In this document: positions 40,693 to 49,511 of the stretch, one piece after another | Layout: each line of letters starts with the position of its first letter | Position numbering within the stretch: the stretch's first letter is position 1 | Origin: Sulfitobacter noctilucae | GTDB lineage: Bacteria; Pseudomonadota; Alphaproteobacteria; Rhodobacterales; Rhodobacteraceae | NCBI RefSeq assembly: GCF_000622365.1 | Contig: NZ_JASC01000014.1 | Span: forward strand, 1,364,001-1,428,000 | DNA length: 64,000 bases | Direction of reading: 5' to 3' | Notes under the pieces: generated by a model | Database searches by the model: none | Told to the model about the DNA's origin: nothing | What the model saw: only the letters and a program-made list of their open reading frames with translations | Program-made: the position numbers and the translations under genes

Positions 40693-40696
40693 ATGC

Positions 40697-41098
40697 TCAC
40701 TTCGCTCTCAGTAACGAACCGATCCGGCTCGATTTTTGAATTTCTTCCATCCCAAGCACACAATAGCTTTGCGGGTCGGAAGTATCGACCCCTCTCGCCT
40801 GGAAAAATGTTGCGGCTTTGCGGCGCAGGCGATTCTTTTCGGCGTCGCTGTCGGTATAGGCTTCGATCTCGGCCTCAGTATAGCCCAGATCGCGGGCCTG
40901 ACGTTCCAGATTGCGTACATACCCGATGGCTTTGAACATACGCGGCGCGATGGTTGGACAGTTCTTGCGTACGATGTCGGCGATGCCAAGATCAAAGAGC
41001 GCGTCGTCAATCGCCGCGACCTCGCGCAGCGGCGTTTTAGCCATCACCGGAGTGGCCAATATCGCGGCCCCCAAAACTGCTGCAACCAATGTCTTCAT
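40697..41098 (-). CDS. DUF5333 family secreted protein
   Basis: A 133-aa protein with a signal peptide ([20 protein letters not shown], cleavage after VMA). The mature part is mostly helical with [27 protein letters not shown] and two Cys (KNCPTI, SYCVLG), matching the Rhodobacterales-specific DUF5333. It ends 4 bases before nuoG. It is repeatedly found in nuo loci of this order, which suggests a complex I related role at the periplasmic face, still unproven. Confidence 0.8.
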
Positions 41099-41216
41099 GT
41101 CTCTAAGTCCTCATCTGCTCAGGCGGTTTTTGCCCCTGCGCAACATGAGTATCAGTCCCTTTGATATGCAATATCAGGCGACCAGCCTGACTGGCTTCGG
41201 CGTCTTATTGCGCATT

Positions 41217-41549
41217 TCAAAGCTGAGGGCAAACCCCCTGAAACACCAATGTATTATCAACGATCCGCAGCTGTTCAGGCGGCGTATCGGGCCCCACTGC
41301 CCAGGCGATGTCAGAGCTGCCGTAGGTTTTGACACAATAGCTGTTGCCGGCGTGCCGGCCGGCCTCGCGCGCGCCGTCAAGAGACTGGGCCACGTCACGG
41401 ATGCGCACGGTAAAGACGTCGCGCTGGCGGTCGACCTTGCTGACCTTGGTCCGATAGTAGTGACCATCAAACGTCAACCTGTCCGCCCTATTGGTGCAGC
41501 CCGCCAGAATGCCGAGGGCCATCAGACCTGCAACTGCATATTTTATCAT
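41217..41549 (-). CDS. Putative lipoprotein
   Basis: A 110-aa lipoprotein with the lipobox LAGC at residue 18 after MIKYAVAGLMALGI. The mature part reads like a small beta-rich domain (DGHYYRTKVSKVDRQRDVFTV) with two Cys near SYCVKTYG and GVCPQ, probably a disulfide. It overlaps the methyltransferase gene by four bases upstream and is separated by 118 bases from DUF5333. Function is unknown. Confidence 0.7.
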   Translation of the reverse strand: MIKYAVAGLMALGILAGCTNRADRLTFDGHYYRTKVSKVDRQRDVFTVRIRDVAQSLDGAREAGRHAGNSYCVKTYGSSDIAWAVGPDTPPEQLRIVDNTLVFQGVCPQL

Positions 41550-42259
41550 TTTTGTACCCTCGAATGCGTCGGTCTTTGCACCGCCGCCTTGTCAATCACC
41601 ACAATAGAATCGTGCACATGCACGCCGCTGAATTCTTGTGCAAGTTCCGGCAAGGCCAGCCCTTTTTTGCCGTGATACCAACTGTGCATGTCATCAATCA
41701 TATGTCGCACCGTATTAAAGAAATTCGCGCGCTCCTTAAACCCCCCGCCGAAACGCGGGTAATAAGCGGTGTGCAGATCCTCGATCATATAGGTGCCGCC
41801 CTCGGTCAGCATAGGAAAAAGCACGCGCAGGGATTTCTCGATATGGGGCATCCGGTGGCTGCCATCATCCAGCACAACATCGACACCGCCCATTTCCTTG
41901 ACGACCTCAGCCAGAAATTCAGGATCGTCTTGCGATCCGATCCGCACCATGCCCGACTGCCCGTCGTATTGCGCGCAGTCGGGGTTGATATCGATCCCGC
42001 ACAACATCGCGTCCTTCCCCAGATACCGCCGCCACATCTGCAAAGAGCCGCCGTTATTCACCCCGATCTCCAGAAACTTGACCGGCGTGTCGCGATACTG
42101 GCCGAAATAGCGATCATAAAGTGGCAGGTAATGATGCCACTTGTGCACCTTCACGCCCTCGTTGCCCGCGTAGATATCAAGCAGATCACCATCAAAACCA
42201 TAGCGGTCGCGGATATCTGCAGCCACATCGCCATCTTCGGGAAAGCGAAATTTTTTCAA
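41546..42259 (-). CDS. Class I SAM-dependent methyltransferase
   Basis: A 237-aa protein. FLEIGVNNGGSLQMW (about 63-77) is motif I for SAM, GIDINPDC motif II, VDVVLDDGSHRMPH (about 128-141) the acidic post-motif. DVVLDDGSH resembles the group of sugar O-methyltransferases and cephalosporin hydroxylase-like proteins found in polyketide and glycan genes. The substrate is unknown; not obviously linked to respiration. Its stop overlaps the next lipoprotein gene. Confidence 0.82.
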   Translation of the reverse strand: MKKFRFPEDGDVAADIRDRYGFDGDLLDIYAGNEGVKVHKWHHYLPLYDRYFGQYRDTPVKFLEIGVNNGGSLQMWRRYLGKDAMLCGIDINPDCAQYDGQSGMVRIGSQDDPEFLAEVVKEMGGVDVVLDDGSHRMPHIEKSLRVLFPMLTEGGTYMIEDLHTAYYPRFGGGFKERANFFNTVRHMIDDMHSWYHGKKGLALPELAQEFSGVHVHDSIVVIDKAAVQRPTHSRVQK

Positions 42260-42386
42260 GGGCCTGCTCCTGCTGCGGTTGGGGTTATCCCCTTATGGCC
42301 CCCATATTTGCGATTATTGCAGTTCAGGCAAGCTCTGTGTCGCGACATCGATGGGTTTGATGCATTGTTGCCTGCTTAAGGTACTG

Positions 42387-42683
42387 CTACCCAAAGGCAT
42401 GATCGCTGTCGCCATGGCGCTCTAGATGTTCGAGCTGCGCCATGCTTTCCCAAACGCTCAAGGTCGAAGCCATCCGCGGGTTGGCCCCCATGTTACCTGT
42501 ATCGCTGGTCTGTTCGAACTCCATCTCGTCGGATGCCATCATCCAGACGAAACCAGGACTGCGCATCGCCGCCGCATTCACCAGATCAAGCCCGTTTACA
42601 AAGTCCTGCACCCTTGGGTCTTCCCAGTCGTACTTCAGGATGCCAAGGTTCAATTCCGCAAGGTGATACCCTTCTTGCTGCAT
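42387..42683 (-). CDS. DUF3291-type protein with an internal in-frame deletion
   Basis: A 98-aa ORF. Residues about 5-55 (HLAELNLGILKYDWEDPRVQ, NGLDLVNAAAMRSPGFVWMM) match the start of DUF3291 proteins. Residues about 76-98 (SVWESMAQLEHLERHGDSDH) join the middle SVWES motif directly to what looks like the family's C-terminal end. The intervening His- and Trp-rich segment of some 45-50 residues is missing. Full members have about 145-150 residues. Probably a remnant. ATG 42683 follows the MAPEG stop by four bases. Confidence 0.6.
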   Translation of the reverse strand: MQQEGYHLAELNLGILKYDWEDPRVQDFVNGLDLVNAAAMRSPGFVWMMASDEMEFEQTSDTGNMGANPRMASTLSVWESMAQLEHLERHGDSDHAFG

Positions 42684-42687
42684 CCGC

Positions 42688-43098
42688 CTAGAATATCGCG
42701 GCACTGATTGTCATGATCGCAAGCGCAATGACGCAAATCCAGCCGATCATCCAGGCGACCGACCGCGCGGGCTGGATTTCCGTACCGATGTGTATCGCTG
42801 CCATGACGATGCGCGATACGATAAAGACAGACGCCAGCACGTTGACCCAGAACGGCGCGACGCCAATCAGGATCGCCGCGACGGTCGCGCCGATGAAGGG
42901 ACCGGACATCTCGATCGCATTGGCAAAGGCGCGGCTTCGACGGTAAACGATATTTGAATAATCTCTTTTCGGATGGCCGCAGGCACAGCGGTTCTCGGGC
43001 GTGCGCCCGATTGTCGAAAGCATCCCCAAGACAAGGCTGATCAATGACCACAGCGCCAATGAGGTAATCGCGTGGCTGTAGGCGGCAAATTCTTCCAT
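42688..43098 (-). CDS. MAPEG family membrane protein
   Basis: A 136-aa four-helix inner membrane protein with the MAPEG pattern: SGPFIGATVAAILIGV and RIVMAAIHIGTEIQPARSVAWMIGW. Bacterial members are often of unknown activity; eukaryotic ones use glutathione or lipid substrates. The helix-2 loop contains RTPENRCACGHPKRDYSN, with the family's Asn and Arg. ATG 43098 follows AAGGA; in-frame 43200 would run into the nuoF terminator. First gene after the nuoF terminator. Confidence 0.78.
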   Translation of the reverse strand: MEEFAAYSHAITSLALWSLISLVLGMLSTIGRTPENRCACGHPKRDYSNIVYRRSRAFANAIEMSGPFIGATVAAILIGVAPFWVNVLASVFIVSRIVMAAIHIGTEIQPARSVAWMIGWICVIALAIMTISAAIF

Positions 43099-43170
43099 GA
43101 AATCATTCCTTTTGAATTGGCCAAATGGCCCTGTCTGAATTGTATGCATGCCTACCACGGACGCGGCAAC

Positions 43171-43197
43171 AAAAAAGGGCCGCAGAAACTGCGGCCC
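43171..43197 (-). terminator. Intrinsic terminator after nuoF
   Basis: On the minus strand GGGCCGCAG, TTT, CTGCGGCCC is followed by six T (43176-43171). Position 26 bases past the nuoF stop. It should end, wholly or partly, the nuoA-nuoF transcript before the MAPEG gene. Confidence 0.92.
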
Positions 43198-43222
43198 CAA
43201 TTTGAGAGAAAGTCGTGTTGGC

Positions 43223-44809: not shown

Positions 44810-45739
44810 TTATTTCTTCTTGCGCGAGGATGCGGTCTCGCCACCCTCGGCCAGTGTTTTGGCCTGGCTCATCCAGTCATCGCGGATGATCCTGCCCTTG
44901 AACCGAAGTCGGGCATCGACCCATGCGATCTCGCTTTCACCCCATGTGGCGACCTGATCAAAGCGGTAGATGCCCAGATCGTTCAGCGTTTGCTCAAGCT
45001 TCGGCCCGACCCCGCTGATGAGCTTCAGATCATCTGCACCCTCTGCAGGCGCGGCGTCGAATAGCTGCGGGGCTTCTTCGATAACAGTGCCTGAAGAGGC
45101 AACCACTGCCTTTTTCTCTGGCTTGGCTGCCGGAGCGGCCGTTTCTCCCGCAGGGATCGCTTCGGACTTCTTATCTGCAGCAACAGGTGCGGCGGCTTTC
45201 TTGGCCGGAGCCTTTTCAGCTGCTGGTTTCGCCGTGTCCTTGGTTGGGTTCTCGTACTTCCAATCACCTTTGCGGCTGGCGAGCTCTGCCTGACCGGCCA
45301 AGGGTTTGGAGGGCTTGATCGCATGACTTTTCTGCACTGGTGCAGCAACTGCGACTTCCGGTGCGGCAGATGCCGCAGGCGCAGTGCTTGCATGTGCCGC
45401 AGGAGTGGCATCCGCTGCCGCCGCCACGGGTGCAGCGGTAGCCGCAGCCGGAGAAGATGCCGCAGTTGTCGCTGCACTGCTGCGCCCGGCCGTATTCACT
45501 TCCGCTTCGCGCGCAGAGCGCTGTGCCGGCATTTCTTCCACCGCCGCAGCTTGACCGCGACAGACAAACAAGTTCAGCACAAAGCCGAGCACAAGGGCAA
45601 CAATCACGCCCGTAGAGAACGCTTGAATGCCGCCGAAGCCGCTAAAGAAATAGAGCAAGGCCATCGTCACAAAACCGACAGCCCCCGCAATCAACCAGCA
45701 CTTTCCGGTGCATCCCAAACCATTTTGTTCTTGTGTCAT
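44810..45739 (-). CDS. Membrane protein with helix-hairpin-helix-like C-terminal domain
   Basis: A 309-aa protein. Two membrane helices (about 14-31 and 37-56), a long Ala/Pro-rich linker (about 65-230), and a C-terminal domain (233-305) beginning DDLKLISGVGPKLEQTLNDL. That GVGPKLE helix-hairpin-helix-like motif is repeated with high identity at the end of the adjacent NuoE. Homologues in Rhodobacterales are sometimes named endonuclease or complex I protein, from position or the domain only. No catalytic residues of a nuclease are seen. Confidence 0.8.
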   Translation of the reverse strand: MTQEQNGLGCTGKCWLIAGAVGFVTMALLYFFSGFGGIQAFSTGVIVALVLGFVLNLFVCRGQAAAVEEMPAQRSAREAEVNTAGRSSAATTAASSPAAATAAPVAAAADATPAAHASTAPAASAAPEVAVAAPVQKSHAIKPSKPLAGQAELASRKGDWKYENPTKDTAKPAAEKAPAKKAAAPVAADKKSEAIPAGETAAPAAKPEKKAVVASSGTVIEEAPQLFDAAPAEGADDLKLISGVGPKLEQTLNDLGIYRFDQVATWGESEIAWVDARLRFKGRIIRDDWMSQAKTLAEGGETASSRKKK

Positions 45740-45771: not shown

Positions 45772-47064
45772 TCAGGTATCGCCGCCATAGCGCCCGTCTG
45801 TGCGGGCCTTCGCGGAAAAGGCTGTCTCTTCGCCCGCCGCCAGTTTAGACGCCTGATCCACCCAGTTGTCGCGGCTGACACGGCCTTTGAACCCTTTGAG
45901 GTTGAGATCCGCCCAAGCGATTTCCGCCTCGCCCCATTTGGCGATTTGGTCAAAATGGAAAATGCCCATTCCGTTTAGCATGTTTTCCAGCTTCGGGCCT
46001 ACACCCTTGATCATTTTCAGATCGTCCGCCCCGGAATCGCGCGGTGCCGATAGGCTCTCGGGTTTTTCGCCCACGGAGATCGGCCCGTTATCTGCCAGCG
46101 CTTCGGCGGGTGTGGTCGTGGGTTTGGCCGGTTTGCCAGAAGACGCTGGCGCGGCGCTGCCGGTCTCGGGTTTGGCGATGGCTTCGGCATCCCCTTCTTC
46201 CCCCGGTGCTTCGCTGCGGCCATCCGAACTCGCCCCGACATTACGCGGTGCGGCGTCTTCGGTCTTGCTGCGACCACCCTGTTTGCCGTCCGGCCCTTCC
46301 GGCGGCATCATGTCGTCACGCTTGGCCTCGGGAGGTTTCTCGTCGGTGTTGGCACCTTTGTCCTGCCACGGCATCAACAGCGGCACCTCGGTTCCGTCGA
46401 TCCGCTTGACCGTGTCGCGGATATCAACCGCCAGCTGGGCGGAGGCGTTGTACGCGGGTTTGCCGCTTTCGTGGTCTTTCAAACTGGTCAGACCGCTCAA
46501 AGGTTCAGAGGCGAAGCGACCGTTTTGCGGCCCCGGTGTCGGCACCTTGCCCGCTGCCAGATCATCCAGCAGTTGCACCAGCGTTTCAGCGGTCAGGTCT
46601 TCGTAGTAATCCTTGCCGATCTGGGCCATCGGCGCATTGGCGCAGGCACCCAGACATTCGACCTCTTCCCAGGAAAATTTGCCGTCCGCGCTCAGCTCAT
46701 GAGCGTTCTTGGCGATCTTTTCCTGACAAACGGAAACCAGATCCTCGGCCCCGCAGATCATGCAGGTCGTCGTGCCGCAAATCTGGATATGTGCCACAGA
46801 ACCAACAGGTTGCAACTGGAACATGAAGTAGAATGTCGCGACTTCAAGCCCGCGAATATAGGCCAGCCCCAACATCTCGGAGACATGTTCGATTGCCGGA
46901 CGGGTCAGCCATCCCTCCTGTTCTTGAGCACGCCACAACAGCGGGATGATCGCAGAGGCCTGCCGCCCCTCGGGGTACTTCGTCATCTGGCCTTCGGCCC
47001 AGGCCTGATTGGCAGGGGTGAAAGCAAAATTCTCGGGTTGGTCGGGGTGTAGTCTGCGCAACAT
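45772..47064 (-). CDS. nuoE: NADH dehydrogenase subunit E with C-terminal helix-hairpin-helix-like extension
   Basis: A 430-aa protein, far longer than the roughly 160-240 aa of most NuoE. The thioredoxin-like domain (about 20-180) binds one [2Fe-2S] through CGTTTC and CLGAC. Then a linker rich in Pro, Glu and Ser (about 225-340) leads to a domain at 344-420, [20 protein letters not shown], closely similar to the adjacent membrane protein's end. It is preceded by a 90-aa secreted protein gene and followed by the membrane homologue. Confidence 0.93.
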
Positions 47065-47082: not shown

Positions 47083-47355
47083 CTATGCCTTACAAGCCGG
47101 AGGCAAGAGCATCAGCGTTTTATCGTCATCCGCGAAAGCCACAACGCCTTCCGCGATCATATCAGCCAAAGCCATGCGGGCGGCATCTGGAGAAATCTTG
47201 TGTTTCGGCAATTCCCGCCCCGCGATGGCGTTGGTCATTTGGCAATCGTTGTTCTGCATGATCTCGACCAACGCGTGCTGGTGACCGTGTGCAGCATGTG
47301 CCGCAGCTTGGCCCCCGGTCATCGCCAGAGGGATCAGGCTGACCGCCAGTCTCAC
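47083..47355 (-). CDS. Small secreted protein between nuoD and nuoE
   Basis: A 90-aa protein with a signal peptide ([20 protein letters not shown]) and a His-rich start of the mature part ([12 protein letters not shown]). Two Cys (NDCQMT, PPACKA) could form a disulfide. It overlaps nuoD's stop by four bases (ATGA) and ends 19 bases before nuoE. Not recognised. The His cluster might bind a metal. Confidence 0.68.
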
Positions 47356-48599
47356 CGGTCAATCTCTCCGAACACCACGTCCATCGTGCCAATGATGGCG
47401 GCAACATCCGCCAATTGGTGTCCCTTGCTCATGTGATCCATTGCTTGCAAGTGCAAGAACCCCGGTGCGCGCAACTTTGCGCGATAGGGTTTATTGCTAC
47501 CATCCGCCACAAGGTACACACCGAATTCACCTTTCGGCGCTTCCACAGCACAATAGACCTCACCCTCAGGCACGTGGAAGCCTTCGGTATAGAGCTTGAA
47601 GTGATGGATCAGGCTTTCCATGTCCTGCTTCATCGCAGTCCGGCTTGGCGGGGTGATCTTACCGCGCGCCAGAATGTCGCCTTTGCCCTCGGGCGCACGC
47701 AGTTTTTCAATCGCCTGCCGGATGATGTGGACCGACTGGCGCATTTCTTCCATGCGGCACAGGTAGCGGTCAAAGCAATCGCCGTTCTTGCCGACGGGCA
47801 CCTGGAATTCGAATTCGTCGTAGCATTCATAGGGCTGCGAACGACGCAAATCCCACGCCATGCCAGAGCCGCGCACCATCACGCCGGAGAAGCCGAAGTT
47901 CAGGATGTCTTCTTCGGTCACGATACCGATGTCGACATTGCGCTGCTTGAAGATGCGGTTCTCGGTCAGCAGCGCGTCGATATCGACCATGAATTTGGAC
48001 ATGAACTGGTCCGCCCAAGCCTCGATATCGTCGAGCAGTGCATCGGGCAGATCCTGATGCACGCCACCCGGCCGGAAATAGGCCGCGTGCAGGCGTGCGC
48101 CGCATGCCCGTTCATAGAAAACCATCAACTGTTCACGCTCTTCAAAGCCCCAGAGTGGCGGGGTCAATGCACCAACGTCCAAAGCCTGTGTGGTCACGTT
48201 CAGCAGATGGTTCAGAATACGACCGATCTCGCAATACAACACGCGGATCAGCGAAGCACGTCGCGGCACCGGAGTTTTGGTCAGCTTTTCAATCGCCAGA
48301 CACCAGGCGTGCTCCTGGTTCATCGGCGAAACATAGTCAAGACGGTCGAAATACGGCAGGTTCTGCAGGTACGTCCGGCTTTCCATCAGCTTTTCAGTAC
48401 CACGGTGCAGCAGACCGATATGAGGGTCGCACCGCTCCACAACCTCGCCATCAAGCTCAAGCACCAAACGCAAAACACCGTGCGCCGCAGGGTGCTGCGG
48501 GCCAAAGTTGATGTTGAAATTGCGGATCTTCTGTTCGCCAGTCTCGAAATCGGTCGAGCCGTCGTCATAGGTGTTCACGCGAATGTCGCCATCCATCAT
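47352..48599 (-). CDS. nuoD: NADH dehydrogenase subunit D
   Basis: A 415-aa subunit forming the quinone site with Nuo[22 protein letters not shown] (about 33-53) holds the conserved His and the hydrogenase-like loop; the C-terminus reads [10 protein letters not shown]. It starts inside the preceding 41-codon ORF's stop (ATGA), so translation of the small ORFs leads into it. Confidence 0.97.
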
Positions 48600-48721
48600 T
48601 TGCGCCCTTTCAACTGCCGCTCACCGGGCCGCCTGTCGTCTTCATCCACACGGACGGGGATCGCAATTTCGTCGCGCACACCGAATATCTTGGCCATAAG
48701 TTCTTCTAGATAGGCAATCAT
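48596..48721 (-). CDS. 41-residue charged microprotein between nuoC and nuoD
   Basis: An ORF starting [20 protein letters not shown], then a basic/acidic tail ending RQLKGRK. The first 20 residues can form an amphipathic helix; there is no membrane helix. Its ATG overlaps the stop of the preceding 57-codon ORF (ATGA) and its stop overlaps the nuoD start (ATGA). The back-to-back overlap chain is the main evidence of coding. No family is recognised. Confidence 0.68.
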
Positions 48722-48891
48722 AGCTTCTCCAATTCTTGCAGGCGCATCCCCATCCACCACAGTAAGGCAATTGTGCCAAAGGGGACCAGACAGGCCGCAG
48801 CCCAGTATTTGTTGATGCCGAAGAACGGCAGCAGTTTCAGCATGGGGATCGCGGTCAGCGCAGAAAGAACCAGCCACCAGAACCCACCCAT
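48718..48891 (-). CDS. 57-residue membrane microprotein between nuoC and nuoD
   Basis: An ORF starting [17 protein letters not shown], with two predicted membrane helices (about 4-23 and 31-50) and a short charged end (RLQELEKL). The ATG overlaps the nuoC stop by one base (TAATG) and its stop overlaps the next ORF's ATG. It has the look of a small accessory membrane subunit. Trp is frequent (five residues). No family is recognised. Confidence 0.72.
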   Translation of the reverse strand: MGGFWWLVLSALTAIPMLKLLPFFGINKYWAAACLVPFGTIALLWWMGMRLQELEKL

Positions 48892-49511
48892 TACTTCGCT
48901 CCCGCCTTGTCGTCGGCAGCCTTGTCATCGCCCGGCAGGATGTATTCCGCTCCCTCCCAGGGGGACATGAAATCAAACTGGCGGTATTCCTGAACCAGCG
49001 AAACGGGTTCATAGACCACACGCTTTTGCGCTTCGTCATAGCGGACTTCGGTATAACCCGTGGTCGGGAAATCTTTGCGCAGCGGATAGCCCCGAAAGCC
49101 GTAATCCGTCAGAATACGGCGCAGATCGGGATGCCCCGAGAAGAGGATGCCGAACATATCGAACACTTCCCGCTCGAACCAGTTGGCGCTTGGGTGCACA
49201 TCAACCAGCGAAGGCACCATGTCTTTCTCACGCACAGCTACCCGAAGCCGGATACGGTGGTTTTGGTACATGGAGAGCAGGTGATACACCACGTCGAACC
49301 GCTTGGCCCGGCCTGTGTAATCAACGGCCGTAATATCCACCAATGTGGAAAACTGGCAGGTCGCATCCCCCTTGAGGAAATCAACCAGCCCCGCGATGTT
49401 GGCCAGCGTCACATCCAGGTTCAACTCGTCCCGGCTGACATCCCATGCAAGCACACAATCGGGCCGTTTGGCCTCGATATAGGCACCAAGTTCTTGAAGC
49501 GCATCAGTCAT
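48891..49511 (-). CDS. nuoC: NADH dehydrogenase subunit C
   Basis: A 206-aa subunit of the peripheral arm (30-kDa type). [37 protein letters not shown] (about 112-149) is the family signature. The C-terminal 20 residues are a Lys/Asp/Ala tail. It overlaps nuoB by four bases upstream and the 57-codon ORF by one base. Confidence 0.96.

Follow-up and report, generated by a model that had tools for sequence, protein, structure and literature searches.

A predicted membrane hairpin encoded between nuoC and nuoD in Rhodobacteraceae as a candidate accessory component of complex I

The window analyzed here, a 64,000-nucleotide stretch of Sulfitobacter noctilucae DNA, carries on its minus strand a nuo operon in which nuoC and nuoD are separated by a spacer of 291 bases (48890-48600). 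A preliminary description of this DNA had claimed that the spacer is filled exactly by two overlapping microprotein genes, a Trp-rich frame of 57 codons with two membrane helices (ORF1) and a charged frame of 41 codons (ORF2), linked to each other and to their neighbors through the junctions TAATG, ATGA, and ATGA. The filling and the junctions are confirmed to the base, 5 of the 57 ORF1 residues are tryptophan, and ORF2 is indeed charged. The features of the locus are collected in Table 1. The same 1-nt offset between nuoC and ORF1 is found in 53 of 80 named loci (the best 80 of 133 relatives). A Shine-Dalgarno-like tetramer, assigned by the usual motif rule, stands before ORF1 at 30 of 32 loci, before ORF2 in each of 15 aligned rows, and ahead of the expected start of nuoD at 26 of 32 loci; these are raw counts without a chance expectation, taken at start positions that were set by homology and that include several expected nuoD starts with no start codon.

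Table 1. Genes, junctions, and putative ribosome-binding sites at the nuoC-nuoD junction (window coordinates).
Feature	Position	Strand	Family match
nuoC, NADH-quinone oxidoreductase subunit C, upstream partner	48891..49511	-	NCBIfam NF004733 E 2e-102, Pfam PF00329
nuoD, NADH-quinone oxidoreductase subunit D, downstream partner	47352..48599	-	NCBIfam NF004739 E 2.5e-183, Pfam PF00346
ORF1, 57 aa predicted two-helix membrane hairpin, founding member of the nuoC-nuoD hairpin family	48718..48891	-	
ORF2, 41 aa charged microprotein, weakly predicted N-terminal helix	48596..48721	-	
TAATG junction, nuoC stop / ORF1 start, 1-nt overlap	48889..48893	-	
ATGA junction, ORF1 stop / ORF2 start, 4-nt overlap	48718..48721	-	
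ATGA junction, ORF2 stop / nuoD start, 4-nt overlap	48596..48599	-	
GGGAG Shine-Dalgarno-like site of ORF1, within the last nuoC codons	48899..48903	-	
GGAG Shine-Dalgarno-like site of ORF2, within the ORF1 codons for ELEK	48727..48730	-	
AAGG Shine-Dalgarno-like site of nuoD, inside ORF2	48606..48609	-	

ORF1 is a real coding gene. Among 13 species in which all four genes could be compared, its pN/pS ratio is 0.115, against 0.091 for nuoC and 0.092 for nuoD, in a comparison for which pS is near saturation. The closeness of these ratios indicates that ORF1 is constrained nearly as tightly as the core subunits. A 30-row comparison gives 0.168 for ORF1 and 0.136 for nuoC, with pN/pS = 0.095/0.568 for ORF1 in the 30-row alignment. 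Twelve residues are invariant across 22 diverse ORF1-type members, whose C-terminal end reads KLQELEK; invariant positions include P16, K19, G25, W30, P37, and W45. Within the window genome the family profile matches ORF1 only, even at E<=10. The AlphaFold2 model of ORF1 has helices at residues 2-23, 28-35, and 37-56 and a mean pLDDT of 94.3, so that the two-helix protein of the preliminary description is confidently predicted to be a helical hairpin with a proline break in its second arm. This hairpin presumably sits in the membrane.

Neither ORF1 nor ORF2 has a match at E<=1 in Pfam-A or NCBIfam, and the earlier remark that both could be missed in annotation is a fair one as far as family annotation is concerned. 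A search of 38 ORF1-family members against Pfam gave only weak, scattered matches, the best with E 0.006. The ORF1 family profile has no match at E<=10 among 177,635 PDB sequences (hmmsearch), Foldseek finds no match to the ORF1 model in the PDB at E<=10, a wider hairpin profile finds just short fragment matches there (E 0.69 and above), and tblastn of ORF1 against annotated plasmid records gives none. By hhalign, the ORF1 family aligns with an unnamed superfamily of two-helix hairpins over 67 columns that include both helices, with a probability of 99%, a value that is partly circular since the superfamily members came from the ORF1-family profile search or its hits. In other Alphaproteobacteria the consensus of this superfamily is P-x-W-x-I-x-x-R-x-G ... 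P-x-x-N-x-x-x-L-W-x-L-A-F-x-x-W-P; its hairpins end in AFxxWP, unlike ORF1-type members, and those examined lie mostly away from nuoC and nuoD. ORF1-type members form one clade (0.987 SH-like) in a hairpin tree that, being built from sequences of ~57 aa, is too weak for counting acquisitions, and the hairpin subtypes named below rest on this tree and on reading the short sequences by eye. The same operon also encodes DUF5337 (PF17272, 44565-44792), likewise a small protein of Rhodobacteraceae nuo operons with two hydrophobic stretches by eye. Homology between ORF1 and DUF5337, considered for this resemblance, was rejected, the hhalign probability being 0.5% and ORF1 having no Pfam match. In open-access full-text literature, we found, among the papers listed, no title or abstract start on nuoC-nuoD reading frames in Rhodobacterales. 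Older papers on the Rhodobacter capsulatus operon are said to report unidentified reading frames in nuo. The novelty of the ORF1 family is judged here against Pfam, NCBIfam, the PDB, and open-access papers, and an earlier mention in print may exist.

Within the genus of the window, a search with ORF1 (E<=1e-3) finds a match in 42 of 58 genomes. Across the family, the same query at a loose threshold (E<=0.1) reaches 63 of 198 genomes, many of the weakest matches being unrelated, and a whole-genome search with the family profile yields 49 matches in 46 of the 198, so that roughly one in four of the sampled Rhodobacteraceae genomes has the family. The matches listed contain no internal stop codon; for ORF1, the signs that the preliminary description had named as speaking against it, namely a missing frame in relatives or accumulating stop codons, were not seen. 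Between nuoC and nuoD lie 46 of the 49 matches. One directly follows nuoC at a contig end (G061), another (L303:7609-7824) is a second superfamily hairpin of genome G130, placed between nuoF and nuoG (both named by eye) in addition to the hairpin between nuoC and nuoD, and the one match situated elsewhere is in G180 (contig 12). Thus 48 of the 49 are in or directly beside nuo genes, in a search that is biased towards nuoC-nuoD members since the profile was trained on them. When the best 80 of 133 named relatives are considered, 79 loci are flanked by both nuoC and nuoD and the 80th is cut by a contig end; they include Sulfitobacter, Roseobacter, Ruegeria, Tateyamaria, Sedimentitalea, Primorskyibacter, and Phaeobacter records, the closest being an uncultured Sulfitobacter whose ORF1 is 98% identical. 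One genome (G099, L006:1489-1859) carries an ORF1-type hairpin in tandem with a Gly-rich PFW-type hairpin between nuoC and nuoD.

A class-wide profile search matched 13 of 240 genomes, two of them from the genus of the window. In G323, which belongs to a different alphaproteobacterial family, the hairpin lies exactly between nuoC and nuoD, and the other 10 matches have no nuoC or nuoD match in their ~1.5 kb flanks; by eye, the neighbors of hairpins away from nuoC and nuoD are rlmN-, purB-, or argG-like genes, among others. Six of 60 genomes of the G323 family match, and the nuoC-nuoD arrangement is present in all three sampled genomes of the G323 genus and absent from the other three. The hairpins of this genus overlap nuoD by 4 nt, and its nuoC is only ~52-55% identical to that of the window, which suggests that its nuo operon is probably native. 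At L191, one of these 10 and from another alphaproteobacterial family than the window, two membrane proteins are encoded between genes that by eye resemble nuoF and nuoG; of the two, a protein of 199 aa (1084-1683) matches the hairpin profile too weakly (E 9e-4) to be counted as a homolog.

Sixteen of the 58 same-genus genomes lack an ORF1 match, and nuoC was found in 14 of these. In 9 of the 14, nuoC and nuoD are directly joined, so complex I presumably works without ORF1 in these strains. The other five comprise one genome with another kind of hairpin, whose end reads AFKRWPGD, two with a peptide of one helix that carries a PL(L/F)K motif (all by eye), and two with something else.

The junction between nuoC and nuoD is a hot spot for inserts. 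We compared 147 nuoC-nuoD gaps, one from each of 147 of the 198 family genomes and spanning 146 genera; 30 of these loci were included as best ORF1 matches, so that the set is somewhat enriched for ORF1, and the rest had nuoD among the matches listed. Two nuoD genes at contig edges, two loci without a nuoC match, and one duplicate genome were left out. The gap is shorter than 60 nt in 47 of the 147 genomes. Iterated profile searching places an ORF1-like hairpin in 39 gaps, and, some in combination, a sulfotransferase-like gene is present in 45, an NTF2/lumazine-binding-like gene in 12, a GFA gene in 7, and some other insert in 14. The sulfotransferase-like gene, of ~290 aa, is a recurrent and odd insert in a core respiratory operon (L084, L062, L089, L037, L013, and others); its label derives from a Pfam match below the cut-off, E 5e-4, for the one gene examined. 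Another kind of microprotein is found repeatedly downstream of ORF1 or immediately downstream of nuoC (L211, L213, L215, L234, L267, L316, L320), has one hydrophobic helix and a P-[LF]-[FL]-K-[KN] end, as in MIPFLTEVLELAAAVLLLAGAMPLFKK, and appears by eye to be a family of its own.

Exact chaining of these frames had been called hard to obtain by chance. We scored loci for a full chain of reading frames from nuoC to nuoD, limiting junctions to offsets of -4, -1, 0, +1, or +2, and compared the counts with those from 40 dinucleotide shuffles of each spacer. A full chain is present at 27 of 28 same-genus ORF1 loci (null mean 5.8, maximum 9) and at 64 of 79 named loci (null mean 12.3, maximum 19), two sets that were picked for carrying ORF1 and that may share species. 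Among the 100 of 147 family loci with a gap of at least 60 nt, the count is 58 (null mean 15.6, maximum 22). The chaining exceeds chance, more weakly so family-wide, where edge-to-edge translation of inserts is not universal.

ORF2 is best read as a genuine coding gene that is a young and dispensable companion of ORF1. In a 15-row alignment its pN/pS ratio is 0.49 (codon bootstrap 0.38-0.60), while neutral star simulations (n=300) give a mean of 0.86 and a minimum of 0.70, with 0 of 300 as low as the observed value. Hence the excess of synonymous over nonsynonymous change that the preliminary description had proposed looking for is strong in ORF1 and, in ORF2, lies beyond the neutral expectation. 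Third positions hold 212 of the 438 differences from the ORF2 consensus, all indels in the alignment, which was made on proteins, are whole codons, and the alternative frames contain 43 stops in +1 and 19 in +2. One antisense frame has few stops and a ratio of 0.54, similar to that of ORF2 itself, and part of the coding argument is therefore carried by the preserved start, stop, and junctions. Relatives of ORF2, located by position, occur at 14 of 28 further same-genus ORF1 loci in addition to the window. Among the best 80 of 133 named relatives, ORF2 is present in 9 by pattern and in one more (L222) by eye; nine of these 10 records are labeled Sulfitobacter and the tenth is a Rhodobacteraceae MAG. 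Among the genomes examined here, ORF2 is seen only in Sulfitobacter-type genomes, and a sequence search of the 198 family genomes (E<=1e-3) matches the window's own genome only (1/198). Conservation at the syntenic place is therefore narrow for ORF2. In species without ORF2, ORF1 runs straight into nuoD by TAATG, or different frames fill the slot. AlphaFold2 predicts only a helix at residues 2-18 of ORF2, with low confidence (pLDDT 64); this N-terminal helix may lie at the membrane surface.

The preliminary description had suggested that the two frames encode unknown subunits or assembly factors of complex I. For ORF1, a role with complex I is the most likely one to judge from its genomic association, and ORF2 may have such a role as well. 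Our best explanation is that ORF1 serves complex I as an accessory membrane component specific to certain lineages, most likely as a supernumerary subunit bound to it, and we give this reading about an even chance of being right. It draws together the association with nuo genes (48 of 49 family matches), the core-like constraint, the chained layout, and the hairpin in the same slot of a distant genus, which jointly suggest that ORF1 acts with complex I. Counting against such a role, hairpins are missing from most family genomes, and other superfamily hairpins lie away from nuoC and nuoD; moreover, soluble-enzyme genes (sulfotransferase-like, 45 of 147) occupy the same junction, so position alone is no proof. 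A published study reports that overlaps of 4 and 1 nt couple translation and show an enrichment among heteromeric-complex subunits, and that termination-reinitiation coupling is nearly abolished by gaps of ~20 nt (PMC10666635). In the mechanism that we propose, ribosomes ending nuoC would re-initiate at the overlapping start of ORF1, next at ORF2, and next at nuoD, by which ORF1 would be made in step with NuoC and NuoD, and translation of ORF2 would keep nuoD coupled across the insert. We infer the association of ORF1 with complex I from the genomic association, and we likewise infer its translational coupling, its membrane insertion, and its binding to complex I.

Much of this evidence would also suit an assembly factor or membrane chaperone that binds the NuoC/NuoD (Q) module, or else a membrane subunit, while the enzyme is being put together and leaves it once finished: the genomic association would be the same, ORF1 adjoins the genes of the Q module, and its patchy occurrence is what one sees for helpers. 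However, constraint at a near-core level and the coupled layout point to production in stoichiometric amounts, as would be somewhat more natural for a subunit, and we regard an assembly factor, the next most likely reading, as rather unlikely. ORF1 could instead be a passenger: a membrane protein that does something else, benefits from the constant expression of the operon, and does not involve complex I. A junction that accepts so many unrelated inserts (the sulfotransferase-like, NTF2/lumazine-binding-like, and GFA genes noted above) would readily house one, and hairpin relatives in other families mostly lack nuoC and nuoD in their ~1.5 kb flanks. Against this reading stand the position of nearly all family profile matches in or directly beside nuo genes and the finding of hairpins in a distant genus, again within its nuo operon, as well as at another nuo junction, and we consider it improbable.

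Selection might also act on the translation of the insert, with any edge-to-edge frame keeping nuoD coupled to nuoC and the peptide mattering little. Such a relay would account for frame chains that are kept despite differing inserts (27 of 28 loci in the genus, 64 of 79 in the named set), and for an ORF2 that is weakly constrained (pN/pS 0.49) and replaced or absent in relatives. It fails for ORF1, however, whose amino acids are constrained almost as those of nuoC, with 12 invariant residues over 22 members; it is needed only after an insert is present, 42 of 100 family-wide inserts lack such a chain, and the amino acids of ORF2 are constrained beyond neutral as well. As an explanation of the locus the relay thus seems to us quite improbable, and as a partial account of ORF2 it is likely; for that frame, we consider a subunit role and a translation relay combined with some minor function of the peptide equally likely. 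That both frames are chance openings in a noncoding spacer would agree with their small size and with the lack of a family model matching either, and is extremely improbable against their conservation, purifying selection, exclusively in-frame indels, and chained junctions. For ORF1, a chance open frame is refuted by conservation and constraint.

The preferred reading of ORF1 as an accessory component of complex I can be extended to the junction as a whole. We tentatively suggest, holding it somewhat less probable than its opposite, that the junction serves as a docking site within the operon, where accessory microproteins of complex I are gained, swapped, and lost time and again in Rhodobacteraceae. 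The plugged-in parts would be ORF1-type, PFW-type, and WPGD-type hairpins (three apparent types), peptides with a single helix, and members of the ORF2 family; most of them would have been trimmed to overlaps of 1 or 4 nt, letting translation run through. If this is true, complex I in these bacteria has a variable, lineage-specific set of small membrane subunits, which has been overlooked in structures from model species.

Electrons enter respiration mainly through complex I, for whose mitochondrial form the alphaproteobacterial enzyme is the closest model, and some marine roseobacters are genetically tractable. Very short membrane proteins are known as subunits of other respiratory enzymes, such as CydX of cytochrome bd and the small Ndh subunits of cyanobacterial NDH-1; the likeness to ORF1 lies in their size and membrane location, and we claim no sequence relation. 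If ORF1 is what we propose, it adds an accessory membrane component to an enzyme that is thought to have few of them in bacteria, and it shows how new subunits can enter a complex through its operon. In Paracoccus denitrificans, the eukaryotic-type supernumerary subunits NDUFS4, NDUFS6, and NDUFA12 together with the methyltransferase CI-PIMT are found as extra proteins of complex I, as stated in the structural report (PMC11522691), and mitochondrial-type accessory subunits have been surveyed across prokaryotes (PMC12361115). Like these extras, ORF1 is proposed to be a protein beyond the 14 core subunits of an alphaproteobacterial complex I; they are known from structure, whereas ORF1 is a predicted membrane hairpin of 57 aa encoded inside the nuo operon. 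Comparing subunit names only, we found no ORF1-like hairpin named in the passages on the P. denitrificans structure (PMC11522691).

The nuo operon of the window has other features of note. A 90-aa reading frame between nuoD and nuoE (47083-47355) overlaps nuoD by 4 nt and has no Pfam match at E<=0.01. The nuoE gene itself (45772-47064) has a long C-terminal extension, and the end domain of the next frame (44810-45739), which encodes 309 aa with a hydrophobic N-terminal region, matches the same NCBIfam nuoE-extension region, as if the nuoE extension had been duplicated there. Finally, the gap of ~2.5 kb between nuoF and nuoG (40693-43222, nuoG by eye) contains DUF5333, a lipoprotein-like frame of 110 aa, a methyltransferase, and a DUF3291 frame, and from these contents looks like another insert site in the same operon.
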